Part shown: piece after piece, positions 6,403 through 15,461 of the stretch
How positions within the stretch are numbered: position 1 is the first letter of the stretch
Layout of the letters: every line of letters starts with the position of its first letter
Source of the DNA: Myxococcales bacterium
Lineage (GTDB): Bacteria > Myxococcota_A > Polyangia > Polyangiales > Polyangiaceae
Assembly (NCBI GenBank): GCA_013297655.1
Contig: JAAFHV010000077.1
Coordinates: forward strand, 1-34,645
Length of the DNA stretch: 34,645 nt
Direction of reading: 5' to 3'
Notes under the pieces: model-generated
The model's input: the letters and a program-made list of their open reading frames with translations, nothing else
Databases searched by the model: none
Told to the model about the DNA's origin: nothing
Program-made: the position numbers and the translations under genes

Positions 6403-7923
6403 TCAGCGCCGGTTCGCGGCGGCGGCGAGGAGCTCCGTGGTGCCCTCCGAGATGCTGCGCTGCTTCGGGGGGGCGCTCGCGTCGAAAGAGGCGTCCGCGT
6501 CGCCCATCGCGACGGCGGCGTAGAACGCGGGCGAGCCGTAGAGCTCGAGGCCCCCCGCCATCGCGCCGTCGCAAGAGGCGTGCACACACGCGCCCGCGAG
6601 GAACCACACCTCGGCCCGCCCTTCGGCGCCTACGAGCACGAGCTTTCCTGTCTTTTTCCCCGCGACGAGGCCTTGTACGCGTTCGAGGAGAGACGGCTCA
6701 CGGAGCGACTGGGCGAGGAGCGTGATCGCCGACGGGTCGAACAGCGTGCCCGCCGCCTTGGTGAGGATTGTAAGGGCTTCTTGTGGAGTCAGCAGGCGAC
6801 CGTAAGGGTTCTCCGGATTCTTCACGAGGTCGGCGTAGGCGTCCGCGACCGCGAGGAGGCGCGCGCCCTCGGGGATCGCCGTGCCCGCCGCGCGGCTCGG
6901 GCCGCCGAGCCCGTCCCATCGTTCGTACATGTGGAGCATCGCGAGCTTCGTGGTCTCGCTGAGGCCCACCGCCTCGAGGAGCTGCCCGGGGACCATGGCC
7001 GCCCTGAGCACGATCGGCTTCACGTTCTCGAGCGTCGCCGAGAGCGCCGTGACGTGAATTTCCCCTGGTTTTCCGAGGTCGTGCGCGAGGCCGGCCGCGA
7101 AGAGGGCTTGGACCTCCTCGGTCCCGAGCCCCGCCGTCTCGGCCATGCGCGAGACCAGCTTGGCGACGATCGCGGAGTGCCCCCGGAGCTCACCGCGGTG
7201 GGCATCGAGGAGGCGCGCGGTGACCTCGAGGAGGGCGTGGACGCGGTTCCCCGTCGGCGTGGGTGGCGGTGGGCCAGCGGCAGCGCGCGGAGCCTCCGGG
7301 GCCTCGAGCTCGCGTCGTGGTTTGGCCGCCACCGTGAGCGCAGGCGTGGGGACGTCTTGGGCGCGCGCTCCGCCAGCGACGCCGGAGAGCTTGCCGCTCG
7401 GGAGGAGCACGTTCGCGTCGTACATCGCGGCGGCCGCCTTCGGACCGAGGCCCGAGAACGCGAAGGTTTCGCCCAAGTGGTGCTTTCGAATCGCCGCGCG
7501 CACGGAAGCTGGTCGCGCGACGAAGGCCTTCACCTCGCGCGCACCGGACAGTACGCGCACTTCCGAGAGCATGCTCGCGTCGTCCGGATCGGGCGTCACG
7601 ACGCTCAGCGTGCCCGACTGCGGATCGAACATCACCGGGAACACGCAGAGCAGCTCGGCCACCCGTCGCGGGATGGTCTGGAGGGTCGACTTCGCGATCT
7701 CGAGCTTCGCGAGCTTCTCGCTCGAGACGAAGTGAACGCGATACGCCTGTGAGAGGCCGGAGAGGAGCGCCGCTTCGTCGAGGATGTCGGCGTCGACGAG
7801 GGCGTCCTCGCTGCGGGTGGTGCCGTCCGAGACGAGCTCCACGATCTCGTCGTAGCGCTGCGCGGGGAGCGCACCGGCTCGCACGAGCACGTCCGCGCCC
7901 TTCATCGGCTGGGTTGCGGGCAT
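6403..7923 (-). CDS. MshEN / degenerate HD-GYP / DUF4388 signalling protein
   Basis: A 506-residue cytoplasmic protein with three parts. Residues 1-150 resemble the MshEN (GspE N-terminal) domain, some of which bind c-di-GMP. Residues 225-405 form an HD-GYP-like domain: H249 (GHS), H281-D282 in AHDLGK, and IPEGARLLAVADAYADL. The defining HHE...GYP motif has decayed: the twin histidines read MY (332-333) and GYP reads GGP (340-342), so phosphodiesterase activity is doubtful. Residues 415-480 match DUF4388 (PATAN-like), with KTGKLVLVG and AEVWFLAGACVHA. Start ATG at 7923 lies right after GAGGGG with no spacing; ATG 7905 is an alternative. It follows uridine kinase by 55 bases on the same strand. 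It may be a c-di-GMP-sensing or scaffolding protein rather than an enzyme. Confidence 0.85.
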   Translation of the reverse strand: MPATQPMKGADVLVRAGALPAQRYDEIVELVSDGTTRSEDALVDADILDEAALLSGLSQAYRVHFVSSEKLAKLEIAKSTLQTIPRRVAELLCVFPVMFDPQSGTLSVVTPDPDDASMLSEVRVLSGAREVKAFVARPASVRAAIRKHHLGETFAFSGLGPKAAAAMYDANVLLPSGKLSGVAGGARAQDVPTPALTVAAKPRRELEAPEAPRAAAGPPPPTPTGNRVHALLEVTARLLDAHRGELRGHSAIVAKLVSRMAETAGLGTEEVQALFAAGLAHDLGKPGEIHVTALSATLENVKPIVLRAAMVPGQLLEAVGLSETTKLAMLHMYERWDGLGGPSRAAGTAIPEGARLLAVADAYADLVKNPENPYGRLLTPQEALTILTKAAGTLFDPSAITLLAQSLREPSLLERVQGLVAGKKTGKLVLVGAEGRAEVWFLAGACVHASCDGAMAGGLELYGSPAFYAAVAMGDADASFDASAPPKQRSISEGTTELLAAAANRR

Positions 7924-9884: not shown

Positions 9885-9900
9885 CGGCACGCTCCCTGCT
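9885..9900 (+). promoter_or_regulatory. Sigma-54-type (-24/-12) promoter of the haem-protein/DUF1501 cassette
   Basis: CGGCACG-CTCC-CTGCT: GG at 9886-9887 and GC at 9898-9899 with exactly ten bases between, two mismatches from the consensus TGGCACG-N4-TTGCW. Transcription would start near 9911, giving a leader of about 48 bases before the ATG at 9959, which has an excellent Shine-Dalgarno. It sits in the only sizeable gap before the cassette, which makes chance unlikely but not excluded. Confidence 0.65.
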
Positions 9901-9958
9901 TAAGGGGTAGTGCGTGGCGCGAATCCAAAACGGAAGTAGCGCCCCTACAGGAGGAACC

Positions 9959-10939
9959 ATGAGCGTGGCAAACCTCGGACGGCGTGCAACCCTTCTCCTC
10001 CTTCCGGCCCTCCTCGTGGGCGCCGTGATGGCAGGGGCAGGCAAGAAAGCCTCCGCTGAAGACACCGACCCGACCGCCAAGAAAGAGCGCTGTGCAACCC
10101 GCGTGGCCATTGCCTTCACCGGCAAAGAGACCACGCCGGCGATTTCGGCGGACCCTCAAGGTTCGGTCGACGCGCTCGTTGCAGACCCCGCGTTCGTCGA
10201 GAGATTCTCTCGCTTCATCAACCACGAGTTCAACGAGACTCCTGGCGCGATGGAAAAGGAGGACGCCAGCTACTTCCTCATGAAGTACGTCCTCGAGAAC
10301 AAGCTCCCCTACAAGGACATGTTCCTCGGCCAGTTCAAGGTCGACGGCAACATGCAGGGCAACCAGACCACGGTCACCGCCGACCCCGAAGGTCTCGGTT
10401 ACTTCCGCAGCCAGCCCTGGCTCCTTCGTTATGCCGGTAACGAGCTCGAAGGCTACAAGCTCGTCACCGCGTACCGCCTCATGCAGAACACCGTCGGCCT
10501 CACGCTCGTCGCCTCGACGAACGCGCCCGGCGCCGCGATCGACACCGCCGCCCGCACGTCGAACCCCGGCTGCGTCGGCTGCCACGGCCCCGCCGACAAG
10601 GCCGGCGCTGCTCCCTGGTTCGCTCTCGACCGCGCCGCTCGTGTCCTCACGAAGGTTCGTCGTCAGGGCAACACGGTGACCTTCACGCCGCCCACGGAGG
10701 CGCCGCAGATGGTCGCCGACAAGATGGTGAACAACGACAAGGAGCTCGTCCAGGCTCTCGTCGACTCGCCGAACTTCAGCTTCAACGTCTGCCGCCTGAC
10801 GTTCAAGTTCCTCTACGGCCGCGCCGAGAACGTGTGCGAGTCGAAGGTCTTCGACGCCTGCGTCAACGAGTTCAAATCGAAGGGCACCATCCAAAGCGCG
10901 CTCGTTAGCGTCGCCAAGGATCCCGGGTTCTGTCAGTGA
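9959..10939 (+). CDS. Secreted mono-haem protein related to DUF1588/DUF1592-type cytochromes
   Basis: A 326-residue exported protein. AGGAGGAA eight to ten bases upstream sets the start at ATG 9959 rather than the GTG at 9914. The Sec signal has arginines, a hydrophobic core (10-27) and a probable ASA-E cleavage near 33. One c-type haem site, CVGCH (205-209), lies in a long helical protein. DPAFVERFSRFINHEF (about 76-91) and the end segment FNVCRLTFKFLYGRAE with ALVSVAKDPGFC resemble the architecture of planctomycete/myxobacterial DUF1549, DUF1588 and DUF1592 haem proteins. It is shorter, so it may be a compact member. First gene of the cassette, 17 bases before the lipoprotein gene. Haem attachment is strongly predicted; reaction and partner are unknown. 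Confidence 0.82.
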   Translation: MSVANLGRRATLLLLPALLVGAVMAGAGKKASAEDTDPTAKKERCATRVAIAFTGKETTPAISADPQGSVDALVADPAFVERFSRFINHEFNETPGAMEKEDASYFLMKYVLENKLPYKDMFLGQFKVDGNMQGNQTTVTADPEGLGYFRSQPWLLRYAGNELEGYKLVTAYRLMQNTVGLTLVASTNAPGAAIDTAARTSNPGCVGCHGPADKAGAAPWFALDRAARVLTKVRRQGNTVTFTPPTEAPQMVADKMVNNDKELVQALVDSPNFSFNVCRLTFKFLYGRAENVCESKVFDACVNEFKSKGTIQSALVSVAKDPGFCQ

Positions 10940-10956
10940 GGAAAGGAGGAGCGACC

Positions 10957-11667
10957 ATGAAGATTTCTACGTTCCTTTTTGCAATTCCGATCCTCGCGGC
11001 TGTCGCGGCATGCTCGGGCGGCTCGGATGAGCTCACCGGCGGTCTCGACCCGAACGATCCGAACAACCCGAACAACCCGAACAACCCGAACAACCCGGGC
11101 AACCCCGACCCCAACAACCCGGGCACCCCCGGCGAGAAGACCTGCGCGGAGTCGCAGCAAGGGTACGTCGGTCTCGGTGGGCTCGCGCTCCACGGCACGC
11201 GTGCGGAGTCCGCCGCCAACGTCGACCGTGACCGGTTCAAGCCGTTCTCGTCGCTCTCGGGCGAGTTCCGTCGCGTGATGGGCCTCGGCCAAGCTCCGAA
11301 CCTCGGCGCCTCCGCCGCGACCTTCGGCGAGCCCCCGGCGCGCTTCTACGCGGAGCCCAAGGCCACCGCGGTGAACCTCTTCGAGGCCTACCAAGTCTCG
11401 TTCCGCCTCTGCGAAGCGAACAACACCGGCGCCACCTTCACCGCCGTCCCCACCGACGCCGCTGCCAAAACGCAGTGCGCCGATTGGGAGCGCAAAATCT
11501 GGAGCCGCACGCCCACCCCCGCCGAGATCGACGCATGTGCGAAGGTCGCCGTGACGGACTCGGTCACCGAGACGTTGCAAGCCGGCCCCCGCCAAACGAC
11601 GCCCGTGCGCCGCTGGGCTTACGCCTGTGCGAGCGTCCTGACCTCTGCCGGCTTTTTGACCTACTGA
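10957..11667 (+). CDS. Cassette lipoprotein A, ending in a W-A-Y-A-C...GFLTY motif
   Basis: A 236-residue lipoprotein behind a perfect AGGAGGA six bases upstream of ATG 10957. Lipobox AAVAAC is near residue 20. A flexible linker made of Asn-Pro repeats (about residues 30-57) is encoded by a 9-base tandem repeat. The folded part contains CAESQQGYVGLGG, DRDRFKPFSSLSGEFRR, EPKATAVNLFEAYQV and a C-terminal TPVRRWAYACASVL...GFLTY. That ending resembles the closing helix of DUF1553/DUF1800-type partners of DUF1501 proteins. It is about 65-70 percent identical by eye to the product at 13123-13815, so the two are paralogues. It lies between the haem protein and the DUF1501-like gene, 13 bases before the latter. 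Exposed on the periplasmic or outer surface; role unknown. Confidence 0.8.
   Translation: MKISTFLFAIPILAAVAACSGGSDELTGGLDPNDPNNPNNPNNPNNPGNPDPNNPGTPGEKTCAESQQGYVGLGGLALHGTRAESAANVDRDRFKPFSSLSGEFRRVMGLGQAPNLGASAATFGEPPARFYAEPKATAVNLFEAYQVSFRLCEANNTGATFTAVPTDAAAKTQCADWERKIWSRTPTPAEIDACAKVAVTDSVTETLQAGPRQTTPVRRWAYACASVLTSAGFLTY
11062..11097 (+). repeat. 9-base tandem repeat in the lipoprotein A linker
   Basis: Four perfect in-frame copies of AACAACCCG, flanked by decayed copies, encode the Asn-Asn-Pro linker after the lipobox. A change in copy number would lengthen or shorten the tether by three residues without a frameshift. The paralogue at 13123 has a linker of similar position but no such repeat. 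Confidence 0.9.
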
Positions 11668-11680
11668 GCAGGAGCGAATC

Positions 11681-12877
11681 ATGAGCAAATTCAATCGTCG
11701 TTCGTTCCTCAAAGCTGTCGGCATCGGCGCAGGCGCTGCTGTCGGCACTCGCCTCGCGGGTCCGGGCTTCATGCCCGACGCGATGGCGCAAAACTCGGGC
11801 GCCGGTAAGCCGGCCGTCCTCGTCATCTACCTCGGTGGTGGCTACAACGCGCTCTTCGGCAGCGCGGCCTCCTTCATGAACACCGCGTTCGGCGTCACCG
11901 CGGGCAACACCGCGCAAGTGCCTGGCGGTCCCCTCGTCGACGCGTCGTTCAACCGCCTCCCGAAGGCGGCGTTCGACAAGATCAGCACCGTGCAAATCAA
12001 CCACCGCTCGAGCGATCACGGCGGCGGTCAGCGCGGCGGCCAATCCGAAGGCGGCCCGGTCGGCTTCGCGATCCAACTCGCGTCGTCGATGGGCGGCGAC
12101 GGCACCATCAAGATGGCGACCGTCGGTGGCGGCAACGTCAACGGCCTCGCCGGCACGATGAACGGCACGTCGATCCAGAACATCGGCGACGCGCGCTCCA
12201 CGATCGACGCACTCAAGGGCAACGACACGCTCGCCGACCGCGCCATCGCGGCCAAGGCGATCGAGCAGTCGCAGGCCATGAGCGCCGGTCGCTTCGCCGC
12301 CAGCCCGAAGGGTCTCACCCACCTCAAGGACGGCTACGACACGGTCCGCGCGACCCTCACCAAGACCGCGACGCCCTACGACTACGCCGCGGTTCTGCCG
12401 GGCTACGGCGTCACGGGTACGGCGATCAACAACTTCAACTCGAAGATCGCTGCCGCCGAGCTCATGATCCGCGCCGGTGCGAACGTGGTCTACGCCATCG
12501 ACGGCGGCTGGGACACGCACGGCGACCGCGACGGCTCGAACGTCCGCAACATGATGAACACGCGCATCATCCCGCCGCTCATCACGTTCTTCAACCGCAT
12601 GTGGGTCAACAACACCGAGCCGGTCCAGCGCAACGTGAACGTGGTCATCATGGGCGACTTCTCGCGAAGCCTCCCGGGCAGCGACCACGCCACCGGCTGC
12701 GCGGCGACCATCATCGGCGCCAACGTCAAGGTGGGCGGCTTCCAGCGCGTCACCAACAACGTCGGCTTCGACCCGAACCGTCCGTCGGGCCGCGGCTTCT
12801 TCTCGCTCCTTGGTGCTCTCACCAAGACCGCGGGAGCTCCGTTCGGCGCGAACGCCCACCCCGACCTCGCGGTCTGA
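11681..12877 (+). CDS. Tat-exported DUF1501-like protein
   Basis: A 398-residue protein with a twin-arginine signal (NRRSFLK, 5-11) and probable cleavage after AMA (36). The mature part is of DUF1501 type, a divergent branch of the alkaline phosphatase/sulfatase superfold. It shows LVIYLGGGYN (47-56), NHRSSDHGGGQRG (108-119), GGWDTHGD (275-282) and GDFSRSLPGSDHA (325-337), the last two being the usual DUF1501 signature positions. AGGAG six bases upstream supports ATG 11681. DUF1501 proteins usually sit beside DUF1549/DUF1553, DUF1592 or DUF1800 proteins, and here the neighbours are the short haem protein and lipoprotein A. Folded export by Tat suggests a cofactor or metal acquired in the cytoplasm. 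No activity is established for the family. Confidence 0.87.
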   Translation: MSKFNRRSFLKAVGIGAGAAVGTRLAGPGFMPDAMAQNSGAGKPAVLVIYLGGGYNALFGSAASFMNTAFGVTAGNTAQVPGGPLVDASFNRLPKAAFDKISTVQINHRSSDHGGGQRGGQSEGGPVGFAIQLASSMGGDGTIKMATVGGGNVNGLAGTMNGTSIQNIGDARSTIDALKGNDTLADRAIAAKAIEQSQAMSAGRFAASPKGLTHLKDGYDTVRATLTKTATPYDYAAVLPGYGVTGTAINNFNSKIAAAELMIRAGANVVYAIDGGWDTHGDRDGSNVRNMMNTRIIPPLITFFNRMWVNNTEPVQRNVNVVIMGDFSRSLPGSDHATGCAATIIGANVKVGGFQRVTNNVGFDPNRPSGRGFFSLLGALTKTAGAPFGANAHPDLAV

Positions 12878-12940
12878 GGGCGCACACCTCGGAGACCGAG
12901 GTCCCCCTCGCCAACGAGGTACCTCGAAACCGAGCCACGC

Positions 12941-12972
12941 GCGGCCCTCTTCCCTCCGGGGCAGAGGGCCGC
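12941..12972 (+). terminator. Strong hairpin after the DUF1501-like gene
   Basis: GCGGCCCTCT (12941-12950) pairs perfectly with AGAGGGCCGC (12963-12972) around a 12-base loop. Only TTT follows closely (12977-12979), so it may be a weak terminator or a 3' stabilising hairpin separating the first three cassette genes from the fourth. Confidence 0.55.
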
Positions 12973-13084
12973 ACCGTTTCCGAGCTCCCTCGCGAATGGC
13001 TTCGCGCTCGGGGGCGACCGCTCGAAGATGGGGTCCGCAGCCCCCTTTGAACGCCGTAACTTCCTGAAATTGCGTCTGATTTTG

Positions 13085-13100
13085 CGGCACAAGGCGTGCA
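13085..13100 (+). promoter_or_regulatory. Possible sigma-54-type promoter of lipoprotein B
   Basis: CGGCACA-AGGC-GTGCA: GG at 13086-13087 and GC at 13098-13099 with ten bases between, three mismatches from consensus. Predicted transcription start near 13111 is at the Shine-Dalgarno AGGAAG, leaving only about 12 bases of leader before ATG 13123. That weakens the call. Confidence 0.42.
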
Positions 13101-13122
13101 AAGCTTTCCGAGGAAGACCTCC

Positions 13123-13815
13123 ATGAAGAACGTGATCCTCTCCACCAGCGTCGTGCTCTTCGGTCTGCTCACGCTCACGGCGTGCTCGGGTGATGGCGGC
13201 AGCCTCACGGGCGATCCGGACCCGAACGGACCTGGCGGCTCCCTCATCCCTGGCCTCCCCGGAGCCGAGGCTCCGCCGCCCGAGAAGGTGTGCTTCGACC
13301 AGCAGCAGGGCTACGTTGGACTGGGCGGAATCGCGCTCCACAGCTCGCGCGCCGAGGCGCTGCCGGGCGTCGACCGTGATCGCTTCAAGCCGTTCTCGTC
13401 TCTGTCCGGCGAGTTCCGCCGCGCACTCGGCACACCGAACGCGCCGAACCTCCAGAACTCCGCCGCGACCTTCGGCGACGCGCCGCCCCGCTTCTTCGCG
13501 GAGCCCAAGGCCACCGCCGTGAACCTCTTCGAGGCCTACCAGGTCGCGTTCCGTCTCTGCGAGGCAACCAACACGACCGGCTCGTTCGCCTCCGCGCCCA
13601 CCGAAGCCGCCGCGCGCACCGAGTGTGCGAGCTGGGAGCGCAAGGCCTGGAGCCGCACCCCGACGCCCGCCGACATCGACTCGTGCGTGAAGATCGCCGT
13701 CACCGACTCCATCACCGAGAACCCTCCGTCTGGCCAGCGGCAAACCACCCCGGTGCGTCGCTGGGCCTACGCCTGCGCCACCGTGTACGCGTCGGCGGGC
13801 TTCCTCACGTACTGA
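13123..13815 (+). CDS. Cassette lipoprotein B, paralogue of lipoprotein A
   Basis: A 230-residue lipoprotein (lipobox LTAC near residue 22) with a Gly/Pro-rich linker and the same folded domain as the product at 10957-11667. It shares QQGYVGLGG, VDRDRFKPFSSLSGEFRR, EPKATAVNLFEAYQV, CEAxNxTG, WSRTPTPA-DID-C and the closing QTTPVRRWAYACA...AGFLTY. Four cysteines are conserved in position between the pair (besides the lipobox). ATG 13123 is preceded by GAGGAAG. It lies 245 bases after the DUF1501-like gene, beyond a strong hairpin, and may have its own promoter. The pair could be alternative or heteromeric partners of the cassette; nothing in the sequence decides this. It converges on hemC with a shared terminator. 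Confidence 0.8.
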   Translation: MKNVILSTSVVLFGLLTLTACSGDGGSLTGDPDPNGPGGSLIPGLPGAEAPPPEKVCFDQQQGYVGLGGIALHSSRAEALPGVDRDRFKPFSSLSGEFRRALGTPNAPNLQNSAATFGDAPPRFFAEPKATAVNLFEAYQVAFRLCEATNTTGSFASAPTEAAARTECASWERKAWSRTPTPADIDSCVKIAVTDSITENPPSGQRQTTPVRRWAYACATVYASAGFLTY

Positions 13816-13878: not shown

Positions 13879-13919
13879 AGAAAGGCCCGTGACCTCCACG
13901 AGGGGGAGGGGCGGGCCTT
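13879..13919. terminator. Bidirectional terminator between lipoprotein B and hemC
   Basis: AAAGGCCCG (13879-13887) pairs with CGGGCCTTT (13910-13918), with a further inner CCTCC/GGAGG pairing, and a T run follows on the plus strand and an A-rich stretch precedes it. It serves the plus-strand cassette and can also act for hemC arriving from the other side. Confidence 0.88.
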
Positions 13920-13947
13920 TTGCCATTCGCGAAGTAACCGGTTTATT

Positions 13948-14871
13948 TCAGGATTTCGCGAGGGCGAGGAGAGCACGGGCGGCTTTGCGACCCACGAGCT
14001 CGGCGTCGTCGTCGGACGCGGGGTAGGGGTAACGTTCGTCGATCGCGCGGCGGTGCATGCCGTCTGCGTCGGCCATCATCGCGCGGAGCCGAAGCTCGAT
14101 GCCGTGGCTCGCTTCGATGCGCTCCGCGAAGGCCCCGATCGGTGTCTTGCAGTCGCCCTCGAGCTCCGCGAGGACGCCGCGTTCGGCGCGCACGGTGCGC
14201 GCGGTGGTGTCGTGGTGGAGCTTGACGAGCAGCTCGCGGGTCGCGGTGTCGTCCTCGCGGCACTCGATGCCGAGCGCTCCTTGGCCGACCGCGGGCAGGG
14301 AGGCTTCTGCGGTGAGCACCTCGGTCGCGCGTGCCTCGAGCCCGAGCCGACGAAGCCCCGCGTGGGCGAGCACGATCGCGTCGTATTCCCCCTCGTCGAG
14401 CTTGCGGAGCCGCGTGTCGACGTTTCCGCGGAGGGGCACGATGCGGAGGTCGGGCCGCGCGCGGAGGAGCTCGACGTAACGACGGAGGCTGCTCGTGCCC
14501 ACCTTGGCGCCCTCCGGGAGGCCCGCGAGCGTGAGGTGCTTCGGAGACACGAGCGCGTCGAAGGGGGACTCTCGCTCGGGGATGCACGTGATGACGAGGC
14601 CCGCTGGAAGCGCCGAGCCGGGCACGTCTTTGATGGAGTGTACGGCGAGGTGAGCGCGTCCTTCGAGGAGCGCCTCTTCGATCTCTTTCACGAAGAGACC
14701 CTTGCCTCCCACCTCCGAGAGCGGCCGATCTTGGATCCGGTCGCCCGAGGTCGTGACGGTGAGCTCCTCGACCTCCAGCGGGTCGTTCGCAGCGACGAGG
14801 CGCGCGACGAACGCGCGGCATTGGGCGAGCGCGAGGGCCGACTTGCGCGTGGCATACACGACTTTCGACAT
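13948..14871 (-). CDS. hemC: Hydroxymethylbilane synthase (porphobilinogen deaminase)
   Basis: A 307-residue enzyme that joins four porphobilinogen units to hydroxymethylbilane in haem and tetrapyrrole synthesis in the cytoplasm. Hallmarks are ATRKSALALAQ (7-17), GGKGLFVKE (55-63), HSIKDVP (78-84, catalytic Asp 82), the arginine-rich GTSSLRR (125-131) and RGNVDTRL (148-155), and the dipyrromethane cofactor cysteine C241 in EGDCKTPIGAFA. Length is typical. The start ATG at 14871 gives the normal N-terminus MSKVVYATRKS. The gene stands alone, separated from other haem genes. Haem made here would also serve the nearby c-type protein, but no special link is shown. Confidence 0.97.
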   Translation of the reverse strand: MSKVVYATRKSALALAQCRAFVARLVAANDPLEVEELTVTTSGDRIQDRPLSEVGGKGLFVKEIEEALLEGRAHLAVHSIKDVPGSALPAGLVITCIPERESPFDALVSPKHLTLAGLPEGAKVGTSSLRRYVELLRARPDLRIVPLRGNVDTRLRKLDEGEYDAIVLAHAGLRRLGLEARATEVLTAEASLPAVGQGALGIECREDDTATRELLVKLHHDTTARTVRAERGVLAELEGDCKTPIGAFAERIEASHGIELRLRAMMADADGMHRRAIDERYPYPASDDDAELVGRKAARALLALAKS

Positions 14872-14960
14872 GGGGCCGAGCCTACCATTTCGGTCGAAAA
14901 ATCGCCGTCCGCGCGCGGGCATGAACGAAACCACGATCGCGCGCCACCAACTCGGACAGC

Positions 14961-15461
14961 ATGAAAGCGACCCCGATCGTCTCGGTCGGCGCGGCGCTCG
15001 TGCTCTTCGTGTCCACGACCGGGTGCGCCTCGAGCGCGCCACGGCCCGCGGACGCGCCGAGCACGACCAACGCCGTCGCCGATCTCGCCCCTGGACAATA
15101 CGAGCTCTGGATCGACCACCGATGTCGCCGTGAGGCGCGACGGTTCTCGAAGCTCGGCGACGACGCGTACATGCGCGTCGCGAGCGAGAAACGCTTCGTC
15201 GTCTTCCGAACCGCGGACCGCATCGTCCTCCGCTCGGTGGACGCGCCCGGCGTGGAGCTCGAAGCGATCCCGCACCACGACGTACCGGGCGTCTACGCGA
15301 TCAAGTCGGCCTCGGGAGGCCTGCTCACGTTGCACGAGCCCGGGAAGTCCCTGTCGCGGGAAGGGCCGAGCGAGCGCCGCGCCGAGCTCGTCCTCTTCGG
15401 CACCGGGCTCCCGTACCTCGCGTGCGACCGAGGCTCGCTCCGCGCCGTCGCGAGCCTCTGA
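14961..15461 (+). CDS. Small lipoprotein of unknown function
   Basis: A 166-residue predicted lipoprotein with lipobox TTGC (Cys 22), a short Ala/Pro/Ser linker, and a compact beta-rich domain from about residue 45 (GQYELWIDHRC, DAYMRVASEKRFVVF, DRIVLRSVDAPGVELEAI, GVYAIKSASGGLLTL). Two cysteines near its ends could form one disulfide. I do not recognise a family. It is divergent from hemC (89-base gap) and convergent with the DUF4139 gene. No clear Shine-Dalgarno is visible before ATG 14961. Confidence 0.7.
   Translation: MKATPIVSVGAALVLFVSTTGCASSAPRPADAPSTTNAVADLAPGQYELWIDHRCRREARRFSKLGDDAYMRVASEKRFVVFRTADRIVLRSVDAPGVELEAIPHHDVPGVYAIKSASGGLLTLHEPGKSLSREGPSERRAELVLFGTGLPYLACDRGSLRAVASL

Follow-up and report, generated by a model that had tools for sequence, protein, structure and literature searches.

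What does a DUF1501-like protein work with when its gene stands directly behind those for a small exported haem protein and a lipoprotein? The question is raised by a locus in a 34,645-nucleotide contig of a Myxococcales bacterium (JAAFHV010000077.1, assembly GCA_013297655.1), the whole of which is called the window below. DUF1549-DUF1553 proteins are associated with DUF1501 proteins. Gene pairs of the DUF1800-DUF1501 type, with a Tat motif on the DUF1501 member, are also described in PMC5122149. In both systems, the architecture of the partner differs from that of the haem/lipoprotein pair found here. The locus is probably a sigma-54-controlled operon in which a circularly permuted PSD/PSCyt3 haem protein is encoded as two separate halves by the first two genes. 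The features of the locus are as follows.

9885..9900, + strand: sigma-54-type promoter, -24/-12, CGGCACGCTCCCTGCT (CGGCACG-N4-TGCT), score 13.5 of 15.5, 58 nt to the start of the haem gene
9949..9954, + strand: Shine-Dalgarno sequence AGGAGG of the haem gene
9959..10939, + strand (protein 9959-10936, then stop): haem gene, 326 aa, exported mono-haem c-type protein, corresponding to the DUF1592-DUF1588-DUF1585 half of a PSD/PSCyt3 protein
10571..10585, + strand: haem attachment motif CVGCH, C205-V-G-C208-H209 (residues 205-209)
10957..11667, + strand (protein 10957-11664): lipA, lipoprotein A, 236 aa, lipobox Cys19, C-terminal end resembling DUF1595
11681..12877, + strand (protein 11681-12874): gene for the DUF1501-like, Tat-exported protein, 398 aa
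12941..12972, + strand: strong RNA hairpin between the DUF1501 gene and lipB, -29.9 kcal/mol, z -5.46, without a U-run on its 3' side
13085..13100, + strand: possible second sigma-54 site, CGGCACAAGGCGTGCA, score 12.5, 22 nt to the start of lipB
13123..13815, + strand (protein 13123-13812): lipB, lipoprotein B, 230 aa, tandem duplicate of lipA
13880..13921, + strand: terminator-like hairpin 3' of lipB, -28.9 kcal/mol, z -3.91, U-run partly within the stem; absent from the + strand list of a consensus terminator scan

An earlier note on this DNA had described four exported or lipidated products in this order, and all four are present, in frame and each followed by a stop codon. The export signals that it assigned to every product are supported: the N-terminus of the haem protein is a Sec-type signal (judged by eye), and the DUF1501-like protein passes the NCBIfam Tat model (18.1 versus 16.7 bits), the Pfam model giving 17.1 bits, under its 22.7; two N-terminal arginines are kept in 41 of 43 DUF1501-like homologues. 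Strong Shine-Dalgarno sequences were found, as claimed, ahead of the haem gene and lipA. The DUF1501 assignment also holds, with 29.7 bits to PF07394 against the Pfam cut-off of 27, over residues 237-364 only, and the same family is matched by 18 of 30 homologues at E <= 0.01. The two lipoproteins are paralogues (66% identical), and lipB starts 248 nt past the last codon of the DUF1501 gene.

The arrangement recurs far beyond the window. Lipoprotein and DUF1501 genes adjoin the haem gene at all 47 distinct haem-protein loci, and at 46 of them the order haem, lipoprotein, DUF1501 is kept on one strand, with median intergenic gaps of 11 and 13 nt at the 33 whole-genome loci. Among the matches listed per genome, the lipoprotein is present in 17 of 106 genomes, all 17 haem-bearing; G412, which has two cassettes, lies outside the list behind this count and was possibly not drawn. 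Haem and lipoprotein genes occur in equal copies, except for the extra lipB of the window and a 40-aa fragment in G413. That the exported genes are grouped by chance is thus a negligible prospect, ruled out by the conserved gene order and opposed as well by the tight spacing, the matched copy number and a conserved promoter site. The conserved operon, however, is one of three genes, encoding a Sec-exported mono-haem protein, a lipoprotein and a Tat-exported DUF1501-like protein, and not of four. Accordingly, when the gene order was followed into other genomes, as the earlier note had advised, the trio of its proposed cassette stood, whereas the twin lipoproteins did not: lipB is peculiar to this locus, the other 46 having one lipoprotein within the fetched stretches. 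No conserved neighbour emerged from the recurring flank clusters (the top 11, by eye), which look mostly like long unspecific reading frames and kinases. Nor was a consistent adjacent activator found, a sigma-54-activator motif lying near five and a kinase motif near four of the 46 loci scanned. In these comparisons, gene starts at 14 extra loci were assigned by rule, the L152 lipoprotein was trimmed to its last 220 residues for profile work, and the DUF1501 alignment was made without L057 and L065 (contig ends) and L074 (broken frame), the extended set also without L144 (contig end).

The site at 9885..9900 would by itself prove little, because the window holds three sites scoring at least 13.5 on its two strands, and it is conservation that decides. 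Sites of the GG-N10-GC type scoring at least 13.5 lie upstream of 30 of the 47 haem genes, where Markov shuffling gives 0.76 on average (maximum 3) and the density of sites within these loci predicts about 1.0; at a threshold of 12.5, the count is 37 of 47 against a shuffle mean of 4.17. The sigma-54-type promoter of the earlier note is thereby extended to most homologous loci, and dependence of the operon on RpoN is inferred from this pattern of sequence. The remaining 10 upstream regions have no site scoring 12.5, two of them being cut by contig ends, and the stretches scanned at L042 and L074 were short. At L053, where the DUF1501 gene is divergent, a sigma-54-like site scoring 13 occurs on each strand near both starts; the start of its haem gene is uncertain, as a sigma-54-like site falls inside the start chosen. 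In contrast to the split operon, canonical PSD genes seldom have a site scoring at least 12.5 (4 of 25 usable upstream stretches), and relatives in which both halves form a single chain have none scoring 12.5 (0 of 24), starts in both comparison sets being assigned by rule. For the possible second site before lipB, about 0.055 sites scoring 12.5 are expected per 248 nt on one strand, by arithmetic from the measured density. The conserved site offers a route to the inducing condition, and thence perhaps to the substrate.

As to what the haem protein is, its profile aligns with the DUF1592-DUF1588-DUF1585 portion of PSD/PSCyt3 proteins over 266 columns and residues 45-324 (hhalign probability 97.6, E 2.6e-12), which at the level of sequence profiles shows it to be homologous to their C-terminal half. 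PSD2/DUF1585 is matched by 24 of 33 haem proteins at E <= 1 (best 9e-5), the window protein alone reaching 15.5 bits, below the Pfam cut-off of 25.8; the unrelated Magnetochrome model is also matched by 12 of 33 (best 0.033), and DUF1549 by four of 33 (best 0.0051). A single CxxCH site is present, its C205, C208 and H209 unchanged in all 47 proteins, and no further His, Met or Lys is kept in >=80% of them. The DUF1587-DUF1595 half is missing from the chain, a DUF1595-like end being found in the separate lipoprotein. The AlphaFold2 model of the haem protein has a pLDDT of 85.9 and a pTM of 0.82.

The earlier note had proposed that the large partner of DUF1501 is here divided between the haem protein and a lipoprotein whose end resembles the tails of such partners. 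Comparison of the lipoprotein by hhalign with ten single large proteins gave nothing significant, and deeper profiles were therefore built. With these, the C-terminal end matches DUF1595 (E 7.3e-5, probability 63) and the tail of the single-chain relatives (1.7e-4), and in both cases, as in the comparison with the PSD N-half, none of 150 column shuffles reaches the observed score; in a first control against the full PSD profile, one of 100 shuffles was at or above it. DUF1595 (PSD5) is matched by seven of 34 lipoproteins at E <= 10 (best 0.0052) and, lipid-attachment motif aside (2/34), is the only family with more than one lipoprotein match, although neither lipA nor lipB of the window has a Pfam match to it at E <= 1. 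Taken together, the profiles show the lipoprotein end to be remotely homologous to DUF1595. The proposed split is thus supported, with a different best-matching parent: PSD/PSCyt3 instead of DUF1549/DUF1553 or DUF1800. DUF1553 gave no significant match to the lipoprotein end (P 0.1, profile from Myxococcota DUF1549/DUF1553 proteins) and was rejected as its best parent, and DUF1800 (PF08811) is not among the families listed for the 33 haem proteins and 34 lipoproteins. Both the DUF1553 and the DUF1595 comparison single out one short 'R.P...E' stretch.

A rival view takes the haem protein for a truncated PSD/PSCyt3 protein and the lipoprotein for an accessory anchor of unrelated origin, its likeness to DUF1595 arising from convergent short helical repeats. 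The matching stretch is only about 65 residues long, DUF1587 (PSD3) finds no counterpart towards the N-terminus of the lipoprotein (P 0.7), and both halves weakly resemble the same generic helical PBS-linker domain, in VIA-align rows under the noise level of the tool (for the haem model, Z 5.3 at rmsd 3.3, 121 aligned; for the lipoprotein model, Z 4.7 at rmsd 4.4, 106 aligned). This explanation is nevertheless unlikely, as it must account for DUF1595 being the only domain family to recur among the lipoproteins, for the outcome of all three 150-shuffle controls, and for a match that ends at the extreme C-terminus of a single-chain relative with the same order of halves and a DUF1501 neighbour. 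Foldseek gave no convincing match for the haem and lipoprotein models among solved structures, nor did the haem model have one among viral predicted structures, and sequence searches of the PDB with the DUF1501 protein and with haem and DUF1501 profiles returned no relevant chain.

These single-chain relatives, L050 and 29 others, are fused proteins with swapped half order, in which residues 1-352 correspond to the PSD C-half (4e-25) and residues 345-526 to the N-half (1.1e-7; 0/150 shuffles), and a DUF1501-like reading frame accompanies them at 28 of 30 loci. They share with the split pair the order of halves, the DUF1501 neighbour, the one CxxCH and the lack of a conserved second His, and differ in being a single chain with few cysteines and no sigma-54 site; in addition, they mostly keep M133 (25 of 30), for which the haem protein of the split pair offers no conserved equivalent. 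Canonical PSD/PSCyt3 proteins (DUF1587-DUF1595-DUF1592-DUF1588-DUF1585) resemble the pair in that their C-half, CxxCH included, aligns with the haem protein and their DUF1595 with the lipoprotein end. Here, however, there are two polypeptides, the gene for the C-half comes first and one half is lipidated, and neither the canonical C396 (31/32) nor the His before the CxxCH, H427 (28/32), has a conserved counterpart. Going by domain names in PMC8981238 and PMC10916295, the X132 domain would have the same architecture as PSD/PSCyt3. In these papers, the domain is found in Cbp2D of Cellvibrio japonicus and in TERTU_2913 and TERTU_3803 of Teredinibacter turnerae, has a single CxxCH and has no characterised homologue; the domain printed there as DUF1687 for the T. 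turnerae proteins is perhaps a slip for DUF1587. Such proteins differ from the split pair in being very large, with carbohydrate-binding or further haem domains. The conservation of the sigma-54 site, the fused relatives of swapped order and the cysteine pattern described next are new here.

How might two separated halves be held together? All 47 haem proteins have five non-haem cysteines, and the number after the lipobox is odd in 48 of 48 lipoproteins (3, 5, 7 and 9 in 5, 34, 7 and 2 proteins, respectively), whereas the tails of the fused relatives have none in 29 of 30 cases and their cores two in 25 of 30. From odd numbers in both halves and almost none in fused tails, a disulfide between the halves is predicted, and the halves are most likely rejoined in this way. 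Alternatively, and with a probability not far short of even, the odd cysteines do not join the two halves, each protein keeping a free thiol, forming a homodimer or ligating the haem by a thiolate; an odd count per chain would also fit free thiols. Against this stand the odd parity of every lipoprotein despite its varying count, the constant five of the haem protein, and the near absence of cysteines from fused tails, where no joining is needed. C152 and C224 are lost together in two separate clades. The pattern makes the manner of their joining open to a clear yes-or-no test.

The locus is best read as encoding a haem redox complex in two pieces, tethered to a membrane and working with a partner that resembles hydrolases. 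Sigma-54 and an enhancer-binding activator would turn the operon on; the haem half would be exported by Sec and receive one covalent c-type haem; the lipidated DUF1595-like half would anchor both, probably in the outer membrane; the halves would re-associate, most likely through a disulfide, to restore the module found in relatives as a single chain; and this would act with the Tat-exported DUF1501-like protein, likely a metal-dependent hydrolase-type partner. A redox or degradation role would follow for the system, with complex, location, chemistry and substrate all conjectural. The three-gene unit, carried by some soil myxobacteria, would encode an exported haem-iron machine and is probably expressed only on demand. 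More tentatively, the whole may be a haem enzyme that was permuted, cut into two exported chains, given cysteines for disulfide stitching and anchored by a lipid on one half, a sigma-54-switched surface machine with a single five-coordinate-type haem and a metal-hydrolase-like DUF1501 partner.

The c-type CxxCH haem of a secreted protein is often an electron relay, as is generally known, and the pair may instead be a relay to or from an oxidase, a copper enzyme or the DUF1501 protein, a lesser possibility of some weight. Cbp2D, whose X132 domain bears a CxxCH and which is also annotated with DUF1587, is described as important for growth on insoluble cellulose (PMC8981238, PMC12542752). However, the X183 relay domains treated in PMC10916295 have His/Met haem ligands, unlike the haem proteins here, and the large redox proteins discussed there were judged unlikely electron donors for LPMOs. 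As no further His, Met or Lys is conserved as a haem ligand, chemistry on a substrate or on oxygen or peroxide is somewhat likelier than pure electron relay. Production of full-length Cbp2D failed (PMC8981238), and the large relatives have resisted such work, whereas the split halves are small (326 and about 230 residues), so that expression, spectroscopy and crystallography may become realistic.

All four genes that the earlier note had joined into one sigma-54-type cassette are present in the window, but the conserved unit comprises three of them, coding for an exported mono-haem protein, a lipoprotein (lipA) and a DUF1501-like protein. The elements concerned are listed below, with signal peptide and lipobox calls made by eye.

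1354-2721, + strand: response regulator of the NtrC type, carrying the sigma-54 interaction domain (PF00158, E 9.4e-74)
9885-9900, + strand: sigma-54-type -24/-12 site
9959-10936, + strand: haem protein, 326 residues, exported, single CxxCH
10957-11664, + strand: lipoprotein A (lipA), 236 residues
11681-12874, + strand: DUF1501-like protein, 398 residues, Tat-exported, DUF1501 match above the Pfam cut-off
12941-12972, + strand: very stable hairpin without U-run (z -5.46), in the 248-nt gap between the DUF1501-like gene and lipB
13123-13812, + strand: lipoprotein B (lipB), 230 residues
13880-13921, + strand: terminator-like hairpin 3' of lipB (z -3.91), its U-run partly within the stem
13951-15042, - strand: porphobilinogen deaminase (hemC, haem synthesis), convergent to lipB

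The lipoprotein and DUF1501-like genes adjoin the haem gene at all 47 distinct loci, and the recurrence of gene order that the earlier note had proposed to check is found, for these three genes, at 46 of them, where order and strand are identical; the exception is locus L053, in which the DUF1501 gene is divergent. Contig ends truncate this gene in three loci (L057, L065, L144), and in another its reading frame is broken (L074). The genes are tightly packed, with median gaps of 11 nt and 13 nt across 33 whole-genome loci. The lipoprotein was found in 17 of 106 genomes of the family (a list from which genome G412 is absent), all 17 of them haem-bearing, and haem and lipoprotein copies stand at 1:1 except for lipB and a 40-residue fragment in genome G413. 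Because copies otherwise match one to one, lipB, whose product shares 66% identity with that of lipA, is a local duplication outside the cassette. Its proximity to hemC is probably a coincidence, since none of the flank-cluster representatives listed for the cassette loci looks like hemC.

Full-length haem protein occurs in 18 of 108 genomes of the window's family, and three further genomes match merely via the tail of larger proteins. In the window's genome the trio occurs once more on a different contig (L042, contig C210, 156-3105), deeply diverged from the first, and the two copies fall on different deep branches of the haem plus DUF1501 tree. Five copies are carried by genome G347 (L043-L047, on contigs C1, C10 and C19) and four each by G392 and G411, so the cassette multiplies within lineages. 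Of 377 genomes drawn evenly from the phylum, four gave full-length haem-protein matches (alignment E <= 1e-20), all four within the family; a further search yielded these four again. A scan of GTDB contigs gave 33 named loci, 19 previously found (100% identical matches) and 14 new, which bring the distinct loci to 47. The 33 lie in MAGs to which their depositors gave the labels Myxococcales, Polyangiaceae, Labilithrix, Archangium, Myxococcus, Myxococcaceae, one 'Deltaproteobacteria' and two 'Oligoflexaceae'. Going by these labels, the trio extends outside the family, and the 377-genome draw therefore missed carriers.

The haem protein is related to the C-half of canonical PSD proteins, which carry DUF1587-DUF1595 (N-half) and DUF1592-DUF1588-DUF1585 (C-half) in one chain. 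Among 33 haem proteins scanned against Pfam (E <= 1), PSD2 (DUF1585) was matched by 24 (best 9e-5), the Magnetochrome model by 12 (best 0.033), DUF1549 by four and DUF1592 by one. In a profile-profile comparison with 32 canonical PSD proteins, haem-protein residues 45-324 align to the C-half at prob 97.6 (E 2.6e-12). For the lipoprotein, DUF1595 (PSD5) was matched by seven of 34 sequences (E <= 10, best 0.0052), window lipoproteins A and B themselves having no such match at E <= 1; apart from the lipid-attachment motif (2/34), it is the sole family matched by more than one lipoprotein. When the profile was extended to 48 lipoproteins, residues 170-234 aligned with DUF1595 (7.3e-5, prob 63), a score reached by 0 of 150 column shuffles; in an earlier control with the whole PSD profile as target, 1/100 shuffles equalled or exceeded the observed score. 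No DUF1587 match was found in the lipoprotein's first half (P 0.7).

Single-chain relatives link the two halves. In L050 (526 residues) and 29 other fused relatives, together the best loci from the 377-genome search, the halves are swapped: the C-half is matched by residues 1-352 (E 4e-25), DUF1587-DUF1595 by residues 345-526 (E 1.1e-7; 0/150 shuffles), and the lipoprotein matches the end of this tail (1.7e-4; 0/150 shuffles). A DUF1501-like reading frame is present in 28 of the 30 loci. The cassette order of C-half, N-half and DUF1501 is thus that of the fused relative and its neighbour. The cassette is best read, from sequence comparison, as a permuted PSD protein in split form, accompanied by its DUF1501 partner. 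The earlier suggestion that a large DUF1501 partner had been split is supported for the haem protein and the lipoprotein's end. Structural matches to the PBS linker (phycobilisome linker), at haem model residues 71-281 (Z 5.3) and lipoprotein model residues 95-236 (Z 4.7), both below the tool's noise level, hint at a helical repeat shared by the two halves.

The haem proteins have exactly five cysteines beyond the haem pair (47/47). In the lipoproteins the count following the lipobox Cys is always odd: three in five, five in 34, seven in seven and nine in two. Two separate clades, both well supported, lack lipoprotein C152 and C224 jointly, which is what a disulfide pair would lead one to expect. 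The fused relatives have a tail without cysteine (29/30) and usually two in the core (25/30). On the simplest reading, one cysteine per half would form an inter-chain disulfide.

The AlphaFold2 model of the haem protein is confident (pLDDT 85.9, pTM 0.82). In the 47 haem proteins, the only His, Met or Lys residues to reach 80% conservation are His209 and the start Met; the canonical second His (H427, 28/32) is not retained in the split proteins, and the fused relatives retain a Met (M133, 25/30). A haem open on one side would fit substrate, O2 or peroxide chemistry, and an electron-relay role is possible. Seven residues are invariant in 43/43 DUF1501-like proteins (D87, H108, H113, D278, H280, H336, H393), a set that would suit a metal site; DUF1501 is presumably grouped with alkaline-phosphatase-like hydrolases.

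Sigma-54 sites were scored against the consensus TGGCACG-N4-TTGCW, with GG and GC obligatory, in a stretch running from up to 300 nt before each of the 47 haem genes to 30 nt inside it. Sites of at least 13.5 precede 30 of these genes and sites of at least 12.5 precede 37, against means of 0.76 and 4.17 (maxima 3 and 8) in 100 first-order Markov shuffles and 1.0 and 3.1 expected from site density across all cassette loci. Single sites carry little weight, three of at least 13.5 lying within the window; as conservation, the promoter type named in the earlier note is well supported, and the cassette may depend on RpoN. Sites of at least 12.5 occur in 0/24 fused relatives and 4/25 canonical PSD genes. 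At L053 (3771-6886), three score at least 13, two of them, each of 13, on opposite strands near the divergent haem and DUF1501 starts. LipB has a site of 12.5 lying 22 nt before its start, about 0.055 being expected in the 248-nt gap. No activator gene is consistently adjacent to the cassette in the loci scanned, and the window's NtrC-type regulator, about 7 kb away, bears no sign of linkage.

The function of PSCyt/PSD genes is entirely unknown according to PMC5615132. In PMC8981238 and PMC10916295, X132 is a CxxCH domain, described as uncharacterised, that lies C-terminally in Cbp2D, which bears a DUF1587 annotation, and in two T. turnerae proteins; in a T. turnerae figure legend the domain at the N-terminal end of X132 appears as DUF1687, possibly a misprint of DUF1587. 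Cbp2D/Cbp2E are reported to be important for growth on insoluble cellulose (PMC12542752), and PMC5122149 describes DUF1501-DUF1800 operons that adjoin chitin synthases. The titles and abstract openings listed mention no split or Myxococcota version of the PSD system. The grouping first noticed is real and more interesting than claimed: it adds a variant, best read as a split one, to a known kind that lacks functional characterisation. Its promoter signal is clean, and the structural prediction it yields is sharp.

By eye, frames resembling the start of an uncut PSD protein lie near split cassettes (L143, 9378-11567; flanks of L129, L148 and L152). In the window, 6406-7923 (- strand) joins MshEN, HD and DUF4388 (just below cut-off) in one protein. 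Locus L094 of the same genome (contig C546; 9-1196, 1219-2511, 3233-4612) is apparently another split system, in which a first lipoprotein, called by eye, matches DUF1549 above cut-off and DUF1588 and DUF1585 below it; the other two products are a lipoprotein that weakly matches a cytochrome and a protein carrying a Tat signal.
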